DNA of 31,579 nucleotides, from positions 1-31,579 of the IMG/VR virus record IMGVR_UViG_3300022539_000471; one strand, written 5' to 3'. The position numbers and the translations under genes were made by a program. Shown here in pieces: positions 7,500 to 16,682 of the stretch. Position 1 is the stretch's first letter. Each line of letters begins with the position of its first letter. This DNA is from a virus. The notes under the pieces are model-generated. The model searched no databases and was not told the origin of the DNA. It saw only the letters and a program-made list of their open reading frames with translations.

Positions 7500-7871
7500 A
7501 TGAGTAAGATTAATGTAAACCTGGACGAGGTTGACGAGTTCGAGCCTATACCAACCGCACAGTACCTATGTAGAATTACAAAAGCAGAGCAGGTTAAGGC
7601 AAGTACGGGAGCTGATATGATTTCTTGCGAGGCTGAGGTAGCCGAGGGTGAGCACGAAGGGAGGGTGCTCTTTTTTAATACCATGCTCAAGACGAAAAAA
7701 GGGAAGGTTAATTACTACCTCAGAAGGCTCATAGAGGCTCTCGGTGTGGAATGGACAGCTAAGGGATTCAACACGGAAGATATGATGGGAGCAGAGTTCA
7801 TAGCGAATGTAGAACCACCTGATCCTGGACAGAGATTTAATAAGGTGACTGATTATCTGCCACCTAGTTAG
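7500..7871 (+). CDS. DUF669-type phage protein, probable ssDNA-binding partner, 123 aa
   Basis: Begins SKINVNLDEVDEFEPIPTAQ and contains VAEGEHEGRVLFFNTML and VNYYLRRLIEALGV, the pattern of the DUF669 family. These proteins lie beside Sak4-like ATPases in many phages and are thought to act like single-strand binding proteins; that role is by family and context, not shown in the sequence. AAAGGAGGTGAG precedes the ATG. Last protein gene before the first structured RNA. Confidence 0.78.
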   Translation: MSKINVNLDEVDEFEPIPTAQYLCRITKAEQVKASTGADMISCEAEVAEGEHEGRVLFFNTMLKTKKGKVNYYLRRLIEALGVEWTAKGFNTEDMMGAEFIANVEPPDPGQRFNKVTDYLPPS

Positions 7872-7877
7872 TAATTT

Positions 7878-8016
7878 ATCCGCTCTGGAGTACCTTTGAG
7901 TACTCGGTAATGGTCGTTAAGACCGAGGTCTCTGTCGCCAGGATAGGCATAAGCCGAGTTATTCTGGGAGGGTTGAGACGTGGTGCAGGGGATGGGGATA
8001 ACCTGCCAGAGCGGAT
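7878..8016 (+). ncRNA. Structured RNA candidate, member 1
   Basis: A closing stem of 10-11 bp (ATCCGCTCTGG 7878-7888 with CCAGAGCGGAT 8006-8016) encloses several hairpins: GAGTAC/GTACTC (7888-7893, 7900-7905), GGTC/GACC (7912-7915, 7921-7924), GTCTC/GAGAC (7928-7932, 7975-7979) enclosing CCAGGATA/TATTCTGG (7938-7945, 7960-7967) and GGC/GCC, then GCAGG/CCTGC (7985-7989, 8002-8006). It fills the gap between two genes. The closing stem, the CGTTAAGA loop and the ATGGGGA loop recur in the RNA at 10811-10956, with two compensatory pair changes. I match it to no known RNA class. Confidence 0.72.
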
Positions 8017-8073
8017 CGCAATTATAATATTATAGGAAAAACATCCTGAAACTATAAAGCTTGGTGAAGAAAA

Positions 8074-8460
8074 ATGATTATTGATAAAAAAGTTATATGT
8101 TTCCTGTTAGCAATTGCTGCGGTGCTTGTATTTACTTTCACACTAGCGGATTGCATGAGTGAGATAGATCATTCTAAAGCTCCCTGGCTGCGACGAACTG
8201 ATAAAGATCTAATAACTCAACTGCGAATGGAAATAAATGGCCTTAGTTATGCTCTGAGCACAATGGCTATTAACAATAGATATTTAAGAGGGCTTATTTA
8301 CACTACAAAGCCAGATCATTGGACAACGTGGATTGAGCTTTTGGATGAATGTAAAAGGCTTGAAGGAATAATTAAGGCAAAGAATGAAAGGATTAGAATA
8401 CTAGAGAAGCAACTGGGCATTCGACAATGGCAAACGCCAGCACCATATCGGAAGATATAA
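8074..8460 (+). CDS. Signal-anchored coiled-coil protein, possible inner-membrane spanin, 128 aa
   Basis: Residues 7-25 form a hydrophobic span (VICFLLAIAAVLVFTFTLA) after a Lys-containing start, followed by a mostly helical periplasmic-type part whose end (ECKRLEGIIKAKNERIRILEKQ) looks like a coiled coil. That topology and length suit an i-spanin, and it lies upstream of the M15 peptidase. No o-spanin lipobox partner was found, so a general membrane protein is equally possible. The ribosome site is weak (TGGTGAAG). Confidence 0.65.
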   Translation: MIIDKKVICFLLAIAAVLVFTFTLADCMSEIDHSKAPWLRRTDKDLITQLRMEINGLSYALSTMAINNRYLRGLIYTTKPDHWTTWIELLDECKRLEGIIKAKNERIRILEKQLGIRQWQTPAPYRKI

Positions 8461-8478
8461 GAATCTTTGGAGGAATAA

Positions 8479-8694
8479 ATGGGCATCTATAGTGAATGGG
8501 ATGAGTTCTGTAAGATGGCTAAAGAGAGTGCTGGAACAGCAGGTTCAAGCTTGCCTGCTCCTGCTCGCTGGCAGGATAGCATACTATCATACCTTGACGC
8601 AGTTAAGATATTCGTTGAGGTTTGTTTTCTCATACTCTTATATCTATGGAACTTTTACCTATGGCTAGATGTGGTTTTGTTATGGATAAAATAA
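8479..8694 (+). CDS. Small membrane protein, holin candidate, 71 aa
   Basis: GGAGGAA precedes the ATG. A soluble, Ser/Ala/Pro-containing N-terminal half is followed by one long hydrophobic segment at residues 43-70 (VKIFVEVCFLILLYLWNFYL and on). One span near the C terminus with a position just before the endolysin would suit a holin-like role. No family recognised. Confidence 0.65.
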   Translation: MGIYSEWDEFCKMAKESAGTAGSSLPAPARWQDSILSYLDAVKIFVEVCFLILLYLWNFYLWLDVVLLWIK

Positions 8695-8755
8695 GAAGGC
8701 GAGTCATCGAAGGCCGCCTAAGAAAGGAAAGATATAATAATATAGGAGGAATAAG

Positions 8756-8926
8756 TTGCGAACAAAAGAAGAGATTCAAGAACGAGCTGATGAGATTGCT
8801 GGAGAGAAGTATGGTAAGGCCTTCTATGAGCTGAGTGAGAAACAACAGGATAAGGTATATGAGGAAGCTCAGGAGTCATGGACTGACCACTATGCGAGCT
8901 TGGCAGATTCGATGAAGGAGAGATAA
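8756..8926 (+). CDS. Hypothetical helical protein, 56 aa
   Basis: TTG start at 8756 with ATAGGAGGAAT 5 bases upstream, a strong site that decides this frame over an overlapping one. The sequence MRTKEEIQERADEIAGEKYG and on is soluble, charged and helical. It ends two bases before the next ATG. Confidence 0.68.
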   Translation: MRTKEEIQERADEIAGEKYGKAFYELSEKQQDKVYEEAQESWTDHYASLADSMKER

Positions 8927-8928
8927 AA

Positions 8929-9054
8929 ATGATATGCCTACAATGTGGAAAGGTAATAAAGTGTTATATTGCAGGTTCAGTAGCGTGCCCTGAGTGTGGA
9001 AGTATTATGTCTGACGAAGATCATAGAAAAGAGGAGGAACAAAATGACATGTAA
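8929..9054 (+). CDS. Tiny zinc-ribbon protein, 41 aa
   Basis: CLQC (residues 3-6) and CPEC (20-23) form a rubredoxin-like zinc ribbon, with an acidic tail. Too short for routine gene callers but held between neighbours by tight spacing and an 11-base overlap with the next gene. Role unknown. Confidence 0.65.
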   Translation: MICLQCGKVIKCYIAGSVACPECGSIMSDEDHRKEEEQNDM

Positions 9055-9160
9055 ATACTGTGGATCAGAGGCAACTATGGATAATAAGTTCTATGTTATA
9101 GACTGTTGCAAGAGATGCCACGACGCAGGGGAAGATAGCACTGATAATGAGAATGATTGA
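9044..9160 (+). CDS. Tiny zinc-finger protein, 38 aa
   Basis: CKYC (residues 3-6) and CCKRCH (21-26) give a four-cysteine site with a possible His. GAGGAGG lies 7 bases before the ATG. The TGA overlaps the start of the peptidase gene by one base (TGATG). Confidence 0.65.
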   Translation: MTCKYCGSEATMDNKFYVIDCCKRCHDAGEDSTDNEND

Positions 9161-9627
9161 TGCACCCATCACCCATTACAATCTCCGCACTGATTACAGC
9201 TATACTCTTTGGGAGTTTGTACATGCCACAGATAAAAGAGCGTTTCCATAGGCGCATTAACAATGTATGGATCGGTTCGTACTATCGTCTTTATGAACTT
9301 GAGTCTCCTGATACTAAAGAAGTTAAGGTCGATCCAAAGCTCATAGCATGCTTAGATAAACTACAGAGGGAGAGTGAGAGTAGAGTTGTTATTACCTCTG
9401 GCTACAGAACTCCAGCACATAACGAGAAGGTCGGGGGAGCAGCTAGGTCATTCCACATGAAAGGTATGGCTGTTGATTGCTACCAGGTTGGATGTAAGAA
9501 TAAGAAAGGATTGCTCGCCTTAGCTAAAAGAGGACTCAAATGTGGATTTACCACAGCGATTATTTATAAGGGTCATGTTCACTTTGATGTTCGTTATGAT
9601 GGATTAGGATTAAGATATGCAAAGTAA
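9160..9627 (+). CDS. M15-family peptidase, probable endolysin with N-terminal membrane anchor, 155 aa
   Basis: The core has the M15_3 pattern: SGYRTPAHN, then SFHMKGMAVD (first zinc His and Asp) and GHVHFDVR (second zinc His). All catalytic elements are present. These enzymes cut D-Ala-containing peptidoglycan peptides. Residues 5-25 are hydrophobic (ITISALITAILFGSLYM) and probably act as a signal anchor. I take ATG 9160, coupled to the previous stop (TGATG). An extra TTG one codon upstream is the only alternative. Sits among small membrane proteins, as in a lysis group. Confidence 0.87.
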   Translation: MHPSPITISALITAILFGSLYMPQIKERFHRRINNVWIGSYYRLYELESPDTKEVKVDPKLIACLDKLQRESESRVVITSGYRTPAHNEKVGGAARSFHMKGMAVDCYQVGCKNKKGLLALAKRGLKCGFTTAIIYKGHVHFDVRYDGLGLRYAK

Positions 9628-9635
9628 AGGGAGGT

Positions 9636-10094
9636 ATGAATATGTCTCTATGGTCAGGGCTAATTAATGCTGAAGCAAAGCTTTTCATTCCACATCCGAA
9701 GGTGGAAAGGGAGAAGGTTGATAGCAAATACTTAGAGATTGCACTGCGTAAAGAGTTTGGGGAGGATGCTATTATCTATCTAGTTGATTATGATTATCAC
9801 TTGATAGATGTAGGTGAGATGAGAAATTTTTTAGCAGAAGATAAAACTAACCTAGCTAAGTATGTCCCTGAGTATCACGACTGCGATGACTTTAGTTTTA
9901 GATTAATGGGTCAGGTTTCTACTCCTGGTTGGAGCGATATTGCTTTTGGTATTGTATTCGCTCATACTCCAGAGGGGGAACATGCCGTGAATTGCTTTGT
10001 CTCGGCTACTCATGCAGTCCTACTAATTGAACCGCAGACTGATGAGATAATGGCAAAGCCTGAGAATTGGCAGGTGTTTTTCTGTTTAATATAA
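9636..10094 (+). CDS. Papain/transglutaminase-like fold protein (MOA C-terminal type), 152 aa
   Basis: YHDCDDFSFRLMG, then GIVFAHTPEGEHAVNCF and IEPQTDEI, place Cys, His and a polar residue as in the cysteine-protease domain of the agglutinin MOA-related family. Cys82 and the His of EHAVN would be the catalytic pair. GGGAGG precedes the start; ATG 9636 and ATG 9642 are both possible. The neighbouring M15 gene suggests a role at the cell wall or in lysis, but no signal peptide is seen, so it would need another route out of the cell. Assigned from memory of the motif. Confidence 0.65.
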   Translation: MNMSLWSGLINAEAKLFIPHPKVEREKVDSKYLEIALRKEFGEDAIIYLVDYDYHLIDVGEMRNFLAEDKTNLAKYVPEYHDCDDFSFRLMGQVSTPGWSDIAFGIVFAHTPEGEHAVNCFVSATHAVLLIEPQTDEIMAKPENWQVFFCLI

Positions 10095-10117
10095 GATAAA
10101 AAGGGAGGTGATTAAGC

Positions 10118-10399
10118 ATGGGAGTATACATGGCAGGATTAATGTTCCTGTTGTTCACTCTAGGCATGGGTGGTCCAATGGGGCAGGCTGATGAGGTTAT
10201 TATTACCGTACCTCCAGCTCGTGTGTTCGAGCTATCTAGCAACAGAACATTCGCAGAGCTGAAGCCTGGTTCTTCGGTATTCAAGGTTGAGCAGAATTCT
10301 CCATTGATAACGACCACTCAAAAGAAAAGTATTGGTGCAACAGCGATTGTAGTGATTGCTCTTGCATTGCTTATGTTTGGTGAGAATGGAGGAGATTAA
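10118..10399 (+). CDS. Membrane protein with two hydrophobic segments, 93 aa
   Basis: GGGAGGTG precedes the ATG. Residues 1-22 are hydrophobic (signal-like) and 73-90 form a second span (ATAIVVIALALLMFG), with an acidic end ENGGD. The middle (VPPARVFELSS and on) looks like an extracytoplasmic beta segment. Two spans and position in the lysis-like group make a holin or envelope protein possible. No family recognised. Confidence 0.68.
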   Translation: MGVYMAGLMFLLFTLGMGGPMGQADEVIITVPPARVFELSSNRTFAELKPGSSVFKVEQNSPLITTTQKKSIGATAIVVIALALLMFGENGGD

Positions 10400-10416
10400 G
10401 AGAGGAGGTGAGAAGA

Positions 10417-10806
10417 ATGAATCTATTTAGAGAAGGAGCAGCTTCGGGCTGTTATGCTGTGGCGTTTGTCTTGGATACAAACTTCGTCGATTTCAAGTGG
10501 GATATAGAGAAGTATCAGGTAGCGCTTAGGATGATTGATAAGGCCCGAGGGGATAAAAAGGTCACTGATGAAGAGATTGGAGACATCCTCATTGCATTAG
10601 GTGATGAACAACCTGTGTATCTAAAGCACGCCCTGTATGTTCTTGGAGCTTTGTTTAAGTCAAAGTCTGTGGACTTCGAATGGGAATCTGAGGAGTTTAG
10701 TGACGTATTTGATTGTTTGGATGACATGCGTGCTGACAATTACTTCACTGATGAGGAGCTAGCGGATTTCCTGAGAGTGCTTGGAGATACTTTGTCTGAA
10801 GAATAA
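10417..10806 (+). CDS. Hypothetical acidic protein with internal duplication, 129 aa
   Basis: ATG 10417 follows AGAGGAGG by 8 bases; GTG 10408 overlaps this site and is less likely. Two halves are homologous: VDFKWDIEKY, RGDKKVTDEEIGDILIALGD and then VDFEWESEEF, RADNYFTDEELADFLRVLGD. Each half has an Asp-rich loop before TDEE, which recalls EF-hand-like or helical pair repeats, but the 12-residue EF-hand spacing is incomplete. Last gene before the RNA cluster. Confidence 0.72.
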   Translation: MNLFREGAASGCYAVAFVLDTNFVDFKWDIEKYQVALRMIDKARGDKKVTDEEIGDILIALGDEQPVYLKHALYVLGALFKSKSVDFEWESEEFSDVFDCLDDMRADNYFTDEELADFLRVLGDTLSEE

Positions 10807-10810
10807 TTAT

Positions 10811-10956
10811 TAACTGCTCTGTGGCGTTCAAGCGTCAGGTTGGTGGTAGAAAAGCCTTTCCTGATACGGGTTGGTAGGGAACGACCAGTTCGTTAAGAGG
10901 CAATTGTGGGGTGGTTGTGGTAGCAGGTTAAATGGGGAACCCTGCCAGAGCAGTTA
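10811..10956 (+). ncRNA. Structured RNA candidate, member 2
   Basis: TAACTGCTCTG (10811-10821) and CAGAGCAGTTA (10946-10956) form a perfect 11-bp closing stem. Relative to the RNA at 7878-8016, two pairs differ on both strands: T-A becomes A-T and C-G becomes T-A. After the closing strand comes a small hairpin (TGGCG/CGTCA, 10822-10826 and 10832-10836, six-base loop). Shared primary elements are CGTTAAGA (10891-10898), the GCAGG/CCTGC hairpin (10923-10927, 10941-10945) with ATGGGGA in its loop, and CCAGAGC. The middle differs in sequence. Followed by GCAAT in both members. Confidence 0.72.
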
Positions 10957-11103: not shown

Positions 11104-11176
11104 GCCAACGTAGCTCAACTGGTAGAGCAGCTGATTTGTAATCAGCAGGTTGGGGGTTTGACTCCTCTCGTTGGCT
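11104..11176 (+). tRNA. tRNA-Thr (anticodon TGT)
   Basis: Acceptor GCCAACG / CGTTGGC pairs fully. The D arm is GCTC...GAGC, the anticodon arm GCTGA-TTTGTAA-TCAGC places TGT in the loop, and the T arm GGGGG-TTTGACT-CCTCT contains G-U pairs. No CCA is encoded. The T loop TTTGACT departs from TTCGANT by one base. Confidence 0.92.
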
Positions 11177-11192
11177 CTAAGGAGGAAGGAAG

Positions 11193-12248: not shown

Positions 12249-12520
12249 TAGCCCTCATAAAACAAGCTAGGTATTTCAAGAAGGGTGATACTACGGCTAA
12301 GTCATTCAGGTTTAGATTCGCAAGTAAATGGAAAGTTGTACATCCTAAAGCGAGGGATAATCTTTATATGCTGTTTGATTTGGATGGGCGTTTTATTGGT
12401 ACTGTTACAGAGGAGGTCTTAATAAAAGCGAGGGAGAGCTATGAAGCTAGCAATAAGCAAGATCAAAGTAAAGGATCAGGTAAGAAAAGAATTCGGCGAC
12501 GTAGAGGGACTGGCAAGTAG
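12245..12520 (+). CDS. Hypothetical basic protein, 91 aa
   Basis: A KOW or SH3-like beta region (WKVVHPKARDNLYMLFDLDG) is followed by a very basic tail ending GKKRIRRRRGTGK. That tail is encoded in the stretch that overlaps the ParB-methyltransferase gene by 80 bases, so part of its composition may be forced by the other frame. Nucleic acid binding is plausible. GGGAAGGGAG precedes the ATG. Confidence 0.62.
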   Translation: MIALIKQARYFKKGDTTAKSFRFRFASKWKVVHPKARDNLYMLFDLDGRFIGTVTEEVLIKARESYEASNKQDQSKGSGKKRIRRRRGTGK

Positions 12521-13670
12521 TATTAAGAAGTTCGGTCTACTGCATCCATTAACAGTCGATGATAACGATGAGCTAGTTGCTGGAGAACGGAGGTTAAGGG
12601 CTTGCAAGCTCCTCAATTTCAAAGAGGTAGAGGTTAAGTATAAACGTGATCTATCCCCTCTAGAGAAAACTGAACTCCAGCTAGAAGAGAACCTCATGCG
12701 CAAAGACCTCACCTGGGTGGAAGAGGTCAAGGGTAAGTGGCTTATTGATGTAATCAAGAGAGGGCTATATGGAAGTGCAGTCAAAGGTAAGGCTGGTGGA
12801 TGGGGAGTTAAGGATACTGCAATGGCACTTGGTAAATCTGCTGGTAGTATCTCGACGGATATACAATTAGCTGAGGCCTTAAGGATGTACCCTGCACTAG
12901 CACTGGAGAAGAATAAATCAATTGCATTTAAGAAGCTTAAGAAGCTCCAGGAGGAGCCATTTTTAATTGAGATACATAAGCGCATGCTAAAGACTGAGCC
13001 TGTGGAGAATGTTATATTAGGTGATGCTCGTGTTATTATACCTACTATAAAGAAGAAGGTTCATCTTATAGTAGCGGACCCTCCCTGGGGTATTGAGGTA
13101 GAGAAATCACACGGGCTTGGGAAGATGAGCGGTGCAACTCCCTTCAGGGATGATAAAGAAAGTTGTCAGCAATTAGCGAAGGATGTTTACCCTCTCTTGT
13201 ATAACGTGCTCGAGGATGACACACACGCCTATATATTCTTTGCAATCACGCAACGAGATTTCCACGTGGAGGCACTTACAAATGCTGGTTTTTGGGTTGA
13301 TCCTATTCCTATCGTATGGCCAAAGGAAGCAGCCTCTGCCCCAGGAGTTTATACTAGATGGACTAATTCATATGAGACTGTGCTATTCTGCAAGAAGGGG
13401 AATAGGAAGTTAAATAGCTCACCGAGGAATGTGTTGGATTATAAAAGGGTCTCTCCGAAGGATAAGATACATGATACAGAGAAACCTGTGCCACTCATTA
13501 AGAAACTTATTACTGTTTCAACACTACCTGGTGAGTGTGTGCTAGATCCATTTGGAGGGAGTGGATCAACGTTAGAGGCAGCCGTTCAGCTTAAGAGGGA
13601 TGTTATTATCATTGAGAAGGAGAAGAAGTATTATCATAATATATGTGAGAGGGCGAGGCAGTTGAAATGA
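12441..13670 (+). CDS. ParB-like domain fused to DNA methyltransferase, 409 aa
   Basis: Residues 1-95 are a ParB/Srx-type domain with GLASSIKKFGLLHPLTV and the box GERRLRA. From about 190 a methyltransferase follows: ADPPWG (motif IV, near 212-217) precedes VLDPFGGSGSTLEAA (motif I, near 370), the order of the beta class of N6-adenine/N4-cytosine enzymes. Such fusions are common in phages and may protect DNA from restriction or mark it for other uses. Target sequence unknown. GGGAGAG precedes the ATG. The stop overlaps the next ATG as ATGA. Confidence 0.88.
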   Translation: MKLAISKIKVKDQVRKEFGDVEGLASSIKKFGLLHPLTVDDNDELVAGERRLRACKLLNFKEVEVKYKRDLSPLEKTELQLEENLMRKDLTWVEEVKGKWLIDVIKRGLYGSAVKGKAGGWGVKDTAMALGKSAGSISTDIQLAEALRMYPALALEKNKSIAFKKLKKLQEEPFLIEIHKRMLKTEPVENVILGDARVIIPTIKKKVHLIVADPPWGIEVEKSHGLGKMSGATPFRDDKESCQQLAKDVYPLLYNVLEDDTHAYIFFAITQRDFHVEALTNAGFWVDPIPIVWPKEAASAPGVYTRWTNSYETVLFCKKGNRKLNSSPRNVLDYKRVSPKDKIHDTEKPVPLIKKLITVSTLPGECVLDPFGGSGSTLEAAVQLKRDVIIIEKEKKYYHNICERARQLK

Positions 13671-14402: not shown

Positions 14403-16682
14403 ATGATAGTAAAAGGAGTAGGGCCGAAGGATGCAAAAATAGCAATAATAGGCGAAGCACCAGGCAAAGATGAAGAAAGAAAAGGAATACCATTCGTTGG
14501 AAAAGCTGGCCAACTTCTTGATCGGATGCTTACCGAAGCTGGGATTGAACGTGGAGAATGCTACATCGATAATATCGTTCAAATGCGTCCACCTGGGAAT
14601 GACTTCGGTGTATATTATGAAGATAAAGCAAGGAAACATCCGAAAGATGTTTTGGTTAAAGCGAGGGCGAGGTTATACTATGACCTCGGACGAATTCGAC
14701 CCAACATTATTATCGGACTTGGAAATGAACCACTTAAAGCACTCACAGGAAGAGGAGGGATAACAAGCTGGAGAGGTAGCACCCTCTGGATAGAGCCTCT
14801 TAAATCAAAGGTCGTCTGCACTTATCATCCTGCAGGTATCCTACGTAATTGGACATGGAGACAGATAGCTGTCTTTGATTTGAAGAGAGCATTAGAGCAA
14901 TCGAAGTTTCCTGAGTATCATACAAAGATACGCTTTCTGATTAGTGAACCAGATAATGTAGAAGCCATACGCAGGTGGACAGAGCTGATCCTAGGAAAGG
15001 AGGTAAAGTACTTATCATTCGATATTGAGACCTATAAGAACAAAGTCATAAGCTGTATAGCATTCGCTACAAGTGATAGACAGTCGTGGTGCTTTCCTAT
15101 ACTGCACGCTAATGGGCAACCCTATTGGGATTCCGTGGTAGAAGAGACTGAGGTCTGGAAATGTATGCATAAGATACTGCGTTCTTCCATCAGGAAGATG
15201 GCGCAGAATGCTAACTTTGATATCACTGTATTAAATAGATTCAACGTGCCTGTTAATAATCTTTGGCTAGATACAATGAATGCTCACCATTTATGTTATC
15301 CTGAATACCCAAAATCTTTAGCATTTCAAACATCGCTTTACACAGATCAAAACTATTATAAGTACATGCGAACAGAGGGAGACCTCTATGAATACTGTTG
15401 TCTTGATGCTGTCATCACATACGAGGTTGCCATGGCATTGAAAGCTGAGATGGAGGAGCTTGGTGTGTATAGGTTCTACCGCAGGAATATTCACCCTCTC
15501 ATTGCTCCCCTTCGTAAGATACAGGGGATAGGAGTAAGGATTGATGAGAAAATAAGAACAAAGCGCAGTGAGCAAGCAGGGCGTAAGATTAAGAACATGC
15601 AGGAGCAGCTAGAGCAAGCTATAGGACATCCGTTGAATGTAAACAGCCATCCACAGATGGTAAACTTTCTCTACAAAGAGCTTAAACTGCCTGCTAGAAC
15701 AAAACAGGGAAGGTTGACAGCAGATGAGGATGCTATCAAGAGCCTTAGAGCAAAGACTAAGTTTAAGTTTCTTGATCTTATCTTAGAAATCAGGGGACTT
15801 CGTAAGCTTAAGTCTGTAACGCTAGACTCGCCTATTGATCCTGATGGTAGAGTACGTACTACCTATCTAGTCGATGGAGCGGAGACAGGAAGAATTAGCT
15901 CACGTAAGACAATAGATAAGACAGGGATGAACTTACAGAATGTTCCTAAACCATCGAGGGACTTCTTCATTGTTGATGAGGGGTGTATGTTTATCGGTGC
16001 AGATCTAAACCAAGCAGAGGCTAGAGTGGTTGCCTGTTTAAGTAGTGATGCCTCATTGTTAAAGCTGTATAAAGAAGGTGGAGATGTACACGCAAGGAAC
16101 GCAGCAAACATATTCAAAGTGGCTCTTGCTGATGTAACCCCAGAGCAACGCTTTATAGGTAAGAAGTTAGTGCATGCAGCTAATTACAGAATCGGATATA
16201 AGAAGTTCTCCCTCGAGACTGGCCTGAGCTTTGAGGAAGCTAGGGAAGCACTTAATACCTACTATGCAACTTATCCTGGCATACCTATGTGGCATGCACG
16301 GGTAGAACGACAGCTCGGTAAGACACGTACATTAACTACTCCGCTTGGTAGGAAGAGAATGTTCTTTGGTAGATGGAATAATGATTTATTCAGGGAAGCA
16401 TATGCACATGTGCCTCAATCTACGGTGGCTGATTACTTGAATATGGGACTTGTTAGATTATACTACGCTCTACCCGATCAGTATAAAATTGTATTGCAGA
16501 TACATGACAGCGTTATCATACAAGCTCCTATAATAGCATGGCCTAAGAGCTCAGATGAAAATCTTATGCATATCAAAGATGTGATAAAGCGATGCATGGA
16601 GATACCCATCTGGGTAGGTAAACATAAGATAATAATACCAGTAGATATAAAGGAGGGAAAGAATTGGAAAGAAGTAAGCTAA
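14403..16682 (+). CDS. Uracil-DNA glycosylase / family A DNA polymerase fusion, 759 aa
   Basis: Residues 1-165 look like a family 4 type uracil-DNA glycosylase: GEAPG (18-22), PFVGKAGQLLD (30-40), NIVQMRPPG (57-65), YHPAGILR (141-148). A 3'-5' exonuclease follows: FDIET (206-210), NANFD (269-273), YCCLD (331-335). The polymerase part has ETGRISS (494-500), motif A ADLNQAEARV (533-542), motif B with Arg583, Lys587, His591 and Tyr595 in the R-x3-K-x3-x-x3-Y frame, and motif C IHDSV (700-704). His takes the place of the Phe/Tyr/Leu usual at E. coli position 762. This is the replicative polymerase. GGAGG precedes the ATG. Confidence 0.92.
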   Translation: MIVKGVGPKDAKIAIIGEAPGKDEERKGIPFVGKAGQLLDRMLTEAGIERGECYIDNIVQMRPPGNDFGVYYEDKARKHPKDVLVKARARLYYDLGRIRPNIIIGLGNEPLKALTGRGGITSWRGSTLWIEPLKSKVVCTYHPAGILRNWTWRQIAVFDLKRALEQSKFPEYHTKIRFLISEPDNVEAIRRWTELILGKEVKYLSFDIETYKNKVISCIAFATSDRQSWCFPILHANGQPYWDSVVEETEVWKCMHKILRSSIRKMAQNANFDITVLNRFNVPVNNLWLDTMNAHHLCYPEYPKSLAFQTSLYTDQNYYKYMRTEGDLYEYCCLDAVITYEVAMALKAEMEELGVYRFYRRNIHPLIAPLRKIQGIGVRIDEKIRTKRSEQAGRKIKNMQEQLEQAIGHPLNVNSHPQMVNFLYKELKLPARTKQGRLTADEDAIKSLRAKTKFKFLDLILEIRGLRKLKSVTLDSPIDPDGRVRTTYLVDGAETGRISSRKTIDKTGMNLQNVPKPSRDFFIVDEGCMFIGADLNQAEARVVACLSSDASLLKLYKEGGDVHARNAANIFKVALADVTPEQRFIGKKLVHAANYRIGYKKFSLETGLSFEEAREALNTYYATYPGIPMWHARVERQLGKTRTLTTPLGRKRMFFGRWNNDLFREAYAHVPQSTVADYLNMGLVRLYYALPDQYKIVLQIHDSVIIQAPIIAWPKSSDENLMHIKDVIKRCMEIPIWVGKHKIIIPVDIKEGKNWKEVS

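Follow-up and report, generated by a model that had tools for sequence, protein, structure and literature searches.

Two structured RNAs encoded in the window, as we call the 31,579-nucleotide stretch of the IMG/VR virus record IMGVR_UViG_3300022539_000471 that was analysed here, belong to a real and functional family of structured RNAs. This family, referred to as type B in the following, is previously uncatalogued and has no match in Rfam. We consider it about 50% probable that its members are small, stable, tRNA-like phage RNAs devoid of an anticodon arm, which are probably matured in the manner of tRNAs and act in trans. The original prediction had placed two related RNAs with end stems at these sites and regarded them as functional RNAs of an unfamiliar class. 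Coordinates and stems proved correct, homologues and strong covariation were found, a covariance model built from 17 other phage contigs finds both copies, and comparison with Rfam gave no known class.

Table 1. Features of the two RNA loci in the window (z, fold z-score against dinucleotide shuffles; R1 and R2, covariance models of type B and type A RNAs).
Feature	Position	Strand	Properties and basis
RNA1	7878..8016	+	type B; R1 31.0 bits, E=1.6e-6; z=-4.27
RNA1 P1 5' strand	7878..7887	+	pairs with 8007-8016; P1 covarying at all positions in the family
RNA1 P2 hairpin GAGUAC-CUUUGA-GUACUC	7888..7905	+	fold; double changes at 5/5 family P2 pairs
RNA1 GGUAAG element (here GGTAAT)	7906..7911	+	alignment
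RNA1 P4 hairpin GCAGG...UGGGGA...CCUGC	7985..8006	+	R1 model alignment
RNA1 P1 3' strand	8007..8016	+	R1 model alignment
RNA2	10811..10956	+	type B; R1 50.4 bits, E=1.4e-11; R2 28.9 bits, E=4.3e-7; z=-1.99
RNA2 P1 5' strand	10811..10821	+	pairs with 10946-10956, 11 bp
RNA2 P2 hairpin UGGCG-UUCAAG-CGUCA	10822..10837	+	R1 model alignment
RNA2 GGUAAG equivalent (GGTTGG)	10838..10843	+	R1 model alignment
RNA2 P4 hairpin with UGGGGA	10923..10945	+	R1 model alignment
RNA2 P1 3' strand	10946..10956	+	R1 model alignment
RNA3, third closed RNA, 12-bp end-to-end helix	10965..11102	+	z=-2.96
tRNA-Thr (UGU), closes the RNA2-RNA3-tRNA cluster	11104..11177	+	ARAGORN; Rfam RF00005
DUF669/SSB-like gene	7500..7871	+	stops 6 nt upstream of RNA1

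Comparison of the two window copies already reveals compensatory change. Two pairs of the closing helix P1 differ on both strands (T7879-A8015 against A10813-T10954 and C7881-G8013 against T10815-A10952), as had been noticed before, and the P2 hairpin is completely changed between the copies yet still paired (7888-7893/7900-7905, GAGUAC/GUACUC, versus 10822-10826/10833-10837, UGGCG/CGUCA), with the GGUAAG element or its equivalent following directly in both. A closing stem of 11 bp had been assigned to each copy, which holds for RNA2; the maximal end pairing of RNA1 (7878-7888 with 8006-8016) also permits 11 bp, but P1 of RNA1 comprises 10 bp in the family frame, as G7888 is the first base of P2 and C8006 the last of P4. 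The described GCAGG/CCTGC hairpin with ATGGGGA in its loop is P4, while the diverged middle is explained by a domain that varies in length throughout the family. Two further resemblances turned out to be coincidental: the shared CGTTAAGA is located 37 nt into RNA1 and 80 nt into RNA2, therefore its positions are not homologous, and the GCAAT just after each RNA is unconserved in the family. The RNAs do bracket genes that had been taken as lysis-like, but we regard this position as incidental, since an M15 endolysin (9157-9627) is the sole recognised lysis gene between them and relatives of the RNAs adjoin other genes. RNA3 is outside the type B family by sequence, and no homologue of it was found among the loci compared. 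An intrinsic terminator was considered for RNA1 and RNA2 and dropped, as neither P1' strand is followed by a T-run. An antitermination element resembling put of HK022, suggested by the literature, was likewise not retained.

For a search for relatives, related phages were taken from IMG/VR, with the UDG-PolA fusion polymerase and the Sak4-like ATPase as criteria of relatedness. In the window, this polymerase (14403-16682) is a DNA polymerase A with an N-terminal domain of the uracil-DNA glycosylase superfamily (PF03167 and PF00476); the window also encodes a fusion of a ParB-N domain with an N6/N4 DNA methylase (12441-13670) and contains, between divergent gene blocks, an AT-rich, repeat-rich and almost ORF-free region (1400-2150) with a 35-nt inverted pair (1504-1538/2016-2050), possibly an origin or control region. 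Low-stringency blast with RNA2 among the related phages yielded an RNA sharing this 11-bp stem in three contigs (L014, L035 and L012), and IMG/VR pattern scans with the conserved motifs led to approximately 40 uncultured phage contigs with the same layout. Pattern matches were kept solely if a closing helix was present, many others being chance matches in coding sequence; a first scan with the 3' end had given only such coding-type matches beyond a near-identical relative of the window. The covariance model R1 was built from type B RNAs of 17 phage contigs, the window excluded, and R2 from the sister RNAs of type A described below. R1 aligned RNA1 and RNA2 over its full length (1-140 of 140) and had no further match in the window; it also detected 12 other type B members left out of training, and 37 of 48 whole IMG/VR records matched, two of them twice. 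One copy with a score of 21.4 bits (L034) was retained as a member because P1, P2 and GGUAAG are intact at a syntenic site.

Outside this collection the family left few traces. When RNA1, RNA2 and pieces of the consensus were compared with GenBank phages by blastn, no family match was obtained. A pattern scan of bacterial genomes returned 12 matches, apparently by chance; the model found no member in 7 of the genomes concerned, nor in 798 genomes sampled from two of their phyla, a search that is weak evidence because its filters were stricter. At the gathering threshold of Rfam 15 only tRNAs were matched in the window, neither RNA1 nor RNA2 among them, and none of the type B or type A members tested reached this level. 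No description of the family was found in the open-access literature, of which our coverage is incomplete.

Type B RNAs are built from the closing helix P1 (7-13 bp), the P2 hairpin, the GGUAAG element, the variable domain and P4, which carries UGGGGA in its loop and abuts P1'. Covariation was assessed in an alignment of 17 type B members without the window, aligned by sequence alone. Across P1 (12 pairs), P2 (5) and P4 (5), 97.5% of the helix cells were paired, 16 pairs showed changes on both sides, and 93 double-change cells were observed compared to 26.7 +/- 4.2 in shuffles; when the partner column was shifted by one, pairing fell to 36-45%. Employing a permutation test with average-product correction and a 5% family-wise threshold, 8 of 5,299 column pairs were significant, all in P1. 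In an alignment of 36 matches including the window, which is fitted to the model, 95.4% of the cells were paired and 17 of 21 pairs were double-changed, including all five of P2. Because members were chosen by short motifs and P1 was defined as the best complement within approximately 280 nt, a slight selection bias is present, which is far below the usual 9-13 bp. By eye, no conserved complement was found that could pair GGUAAG or GGGGA with the rest of the RNA in a pseudoknot.

These sequence-level patterns bear on two alternatives. That the RNAs are degenerate tRNA genes or chance folds might be argued from the tRNA D- and T-arm motifs of type A and from ARAGORN, which calls some type A RNAs if an intron is allowed. 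This reading is contradicted by the covariation, as compensatory change keeps the helices across unrelated phages, and type B conserves a non-tRNA hairpin together with GGUAAG; we thus give it next to no credence. A so far uncharacterised RNA that cleaves itself as a ribozyme, or a small self-splicing element, would fit the autonomous P1, the varied genomic positions and the conserved core, which is compact and has GGUAAG and GGGGA unpaired at a junction. We deem it very unlikely, as no ribozyme or intron family of Rfam was matched, the RNAs sit between genes of which none is interrupted, and type A has features of tRNA.

Type A RNAs provide the link to tRNA. Like most type B RNAs they start with TGGCGTTCTGGCG, followed by a D-arm (GCGU..ACGC) with GG in its loop; a T-arm, mostly GGUUCRAAUCC with the loops UUCGAAU, UUCAAAU or UCCAAAU, occupies the position of P4 and abuts P1'. 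R2 detects type B members in two contigs (L180 and L095, E about 2e-9) as well as RNA2, on which grounds we take both types as homologous; RNA1 remained below significance (6.6 bits). A type A RNA in one contig (L085) and the type B RNAs in L095 and L180 occupy the same locus, with homologous flanking genes and nearly identical P1 sequence; another contig (L155) contains both types.

Compared to tRNA (RF00005), type A thus shares a D-arm with GG, the GGUUCRAAUCC T-arm and its position next to the acceptor helix, but the RNAs described here have a large insert instead of an anticodon arm, a P1 of often 9-13 bp and no encoded CCA that we could see, and in type B the terminal loop differs. For RNase P or the CCA-adding enzyme, a P1 often exceeding 7 bp and the absent CCA may be unsuitable. 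None of the members tested was called as a tRNA by Rfam, or by ARAGORN unless introns were allowed, which is the sole setting that recovers some type A RNAs. For RNA1 and RNA2 neither program made a call, and no cloverleaf with 7-bp acceptor, anticodon arm and T-arm was found in them. The canonical UUCRANY T-loop, present in type A, is replaced by the UGGGGA loop in the window copies, so that a tRNA-type elbow is only putative in them. Two other tRNA-like elements were noted. One is a tiny element behind the DUF669 gene of L025 (approximately 7837-7910) with an acceptor helix, a D-arm-like stem, the T-arm GAAGG-UUCAACU-CCUUC and about 13 nt in place of the anticodon arm. The other, on the reverse strand of L107 (8452-8587), is located 32 nt upstream of a type B RNA and was missed by ARAGORN; it has a 7-bp acceptor, a 5-bp D-stem, the T-arm GAGGG-UUCGAAU-CCCUC, discriminator A and an insert of approximately 85 nt.

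The closest known RNA to the family is RNA C of phage T4 (species 1 RNA, rnaC; NC_000866, 70908-71046), which is encoded within the tRNA cluster and was confirmed by northern blot as a late RNA of unknown role (PMC9697503; PMC3014915). It is likewise phage-encoded, about 140 nt long and adjacent to tRNA genes, and combines an acceptor-like end helix stacked on a T-arm with a large structured insert replacing the anticodon arm; its homologues preserve the helices through compensatory changes, and it has no gathering-level Rfam match. Its ends pair at 5 of 7 positions (5' CGAUUCG with 3' CGUUUCG), one A-U being changed to G-C in homologues, and the middle pair of its T-arm CCGGG-UUCGAAU-CCCGG appears as G-C, U-A and A-U. 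The window RNAs share with it an acceptor-like helix that joins the two ends and abuts a 3' hairpin at the T-arm position. Unlike the family, T4 RNA C lacks a recognisable D-arm motif, P2 and GGUAAG, and its acceptor contains two conserved U-U mismatches. R1 did not match it, whereas R2 gave a weak match (17.2 bits, E=6e-4 in 5.2 kb), with much of the score from the T-arm and an alignment that uses an inner strand instead of the true 5' end; T4 tRNAs reached at most 12.5 bits, through the T-arm alone. Hence T4 RNA C has the same architecture and can be regarded as a plausible relative rather than as an established member of the family. Two other proposals were rejected: T4 RNA D as a relative of type B, whose GGUAAG overlaps a hairpin and which the model does not match, and an inner 8-bp helix as the closing stem of T4 RNA C, which is broken in two homologues. 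A homologue of T4 RNA C in Enterobacter phage SonariX (L309, 114-208) is annotated as tRNA-Met, apparently an artefact of the tRNA finder.

The genomic placement of the family is intercistronic, and P1 often starts 1-7 nt past the stop codon of an ORF that runs in the same direction. A DUF669 gene also precedes related RNAs in L034, L107, L021/L160 and L230. Among relatives of the window, the gap 3' of this gene holds a type B RNA in the window, L034, L021 and L107 (there after the tRNA-like RNA), a type A RNA in L230, a tRNA-like element of some 70-odd nt without anticodon arm in L025, and other closed folds (e.g. L009, L016 and L026) or plain strong hairpins in further phages. Across L009-L045, a strong RNA stem was nearly always present behind the DUF669/SSB gene, in many cases without a U-run. 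Such exchangeability, together with the short distance to the stop codon, would be expected of an intercistronic element for mRNA stability or processing, that is, a structured 3' end of the upstream gene for which any strong hairpin may substitute. We judge this explanation unlikely, as it leaves unexplained both the conservation of GGUAAG, UGGGGA and P2 across otherwise unrelated phages and the promoter or promoter-like sequence at the start of P1. The latter was found at the second copy of G045 and in L122, where TTGACA or TTGACT, a 16-nt spacer and TATCAT end 2-3 nt upstream of P1; the hexamers are conserved, the spacer has diverged and the upstream genes are similar.

A start codon preceded by an SD-like sequence is located 12-30 nt past the end of more than half of the copies, which counts against an action in trans as it would equally fit a role in cis. 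A translation element 5' of the SD is the main rival to our reading, although we consider it rather improbable. It draws on the finding that tRNAs placed 5' of an SD boost translation 2 to 6.3-fold in vitro and that the tRNA-like yjdF aptamer does so by 60% (PMC9142559). With the yjdF riboswitch (PMC9142559) the family shares the character of a non-decoding, tRNA-derived RNA just 5' of the SD, but it has neither an Rfam match nor a common downstream gene. Placement before the SD of one gene class, as for yjdF, was not seen: the downstream genes are diverse and have no recognisable common function, and RNA2 is followed by RNA3 and a tRNA instead of an ORF. Further points against an element in cis are the tandem copies in L155 and L107, a promoter-like sequence downstream of the RNA in L246, and the fact that P1' does not sequester the SD.

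Several loci are arranged as would be expected of RNA genes: the two tandem type A RNAs of L155 (13212-13494), the tRNA-like neighbour in L107, a short copy of 92 nt surrounded by 8 tRNA genes (L248), the order RNA2-RNA3-tRNA-Thr in the window and the promoter-like sequence at G045/L122. A further copy is located 181 nt from a tRNA (L244). L237 (8452-8565), otherwise nearly identical to L155, lacks one of the tandem copies, a difference that apparently reflects loss or gain of a copy and that could be explained by recombination of the repeated GCCCCGCTGTGG (12-nt repeats).

Following our preferred reading of small tRNA-like RNAs acting in trans, P1 would correspond to an acceptor-like helix stacked on P4 at the T-arm position, with P2 at the position of the D-arm and the variable domain replacing the anticodon arm on a tRNA-derived frame. 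We infer that host enzymes of tRNA maturation cut the RNA out of polycistronic phage transcripts, or that, at the G045/L122 locus, it may instead be transcribed from its own promoter. The excised RNA would then accumulate during infection and work as a tRNA mimic binding a host factor, which would recognise the acceptor/T-arm or elbow and not the anticodon. T4 RNA C is proposed to be a molecule of this kind, too.

YrlA and other bacterial Y RNAs are tRNA mimics, i.e. non-coding RNAs with a tRNA-like domain. The family resembles them in this domain and differs in that its members have no Rfam match. A reading as Y RNA was dropped as no TROVE/Ro60 gene was found in any of the 20 member contigs, other than the window, that the search covered.

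As a more tentative extension, possible but doubtful, the window RNAs, type A and T4 RNA C might constitute one widespread class of phage RNAs derived from tRNA. In this class the decoding arm would be replaced, the tRNA enzymes of the host would carry out maturation, and the product would act in trans to counter a tRNA-binding factor or a defence of the host. Our results add a strongly covarying RNA family without Rfam match, found on phage contigs as large as 175 kb. For the stable RNA C of T4, a long-standing puzzle, they provide a comparative frame consisting of many RNAs of like architecture with a defined conserved core, and a testable prediction is offered for these RNAs, namely maturation in the manner of tRNAs and a host target in common. 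The analysis suggests that tRNA-like RNAs without an anticodon arm are common in phage genomes and have been overlooked by tRNA finders.
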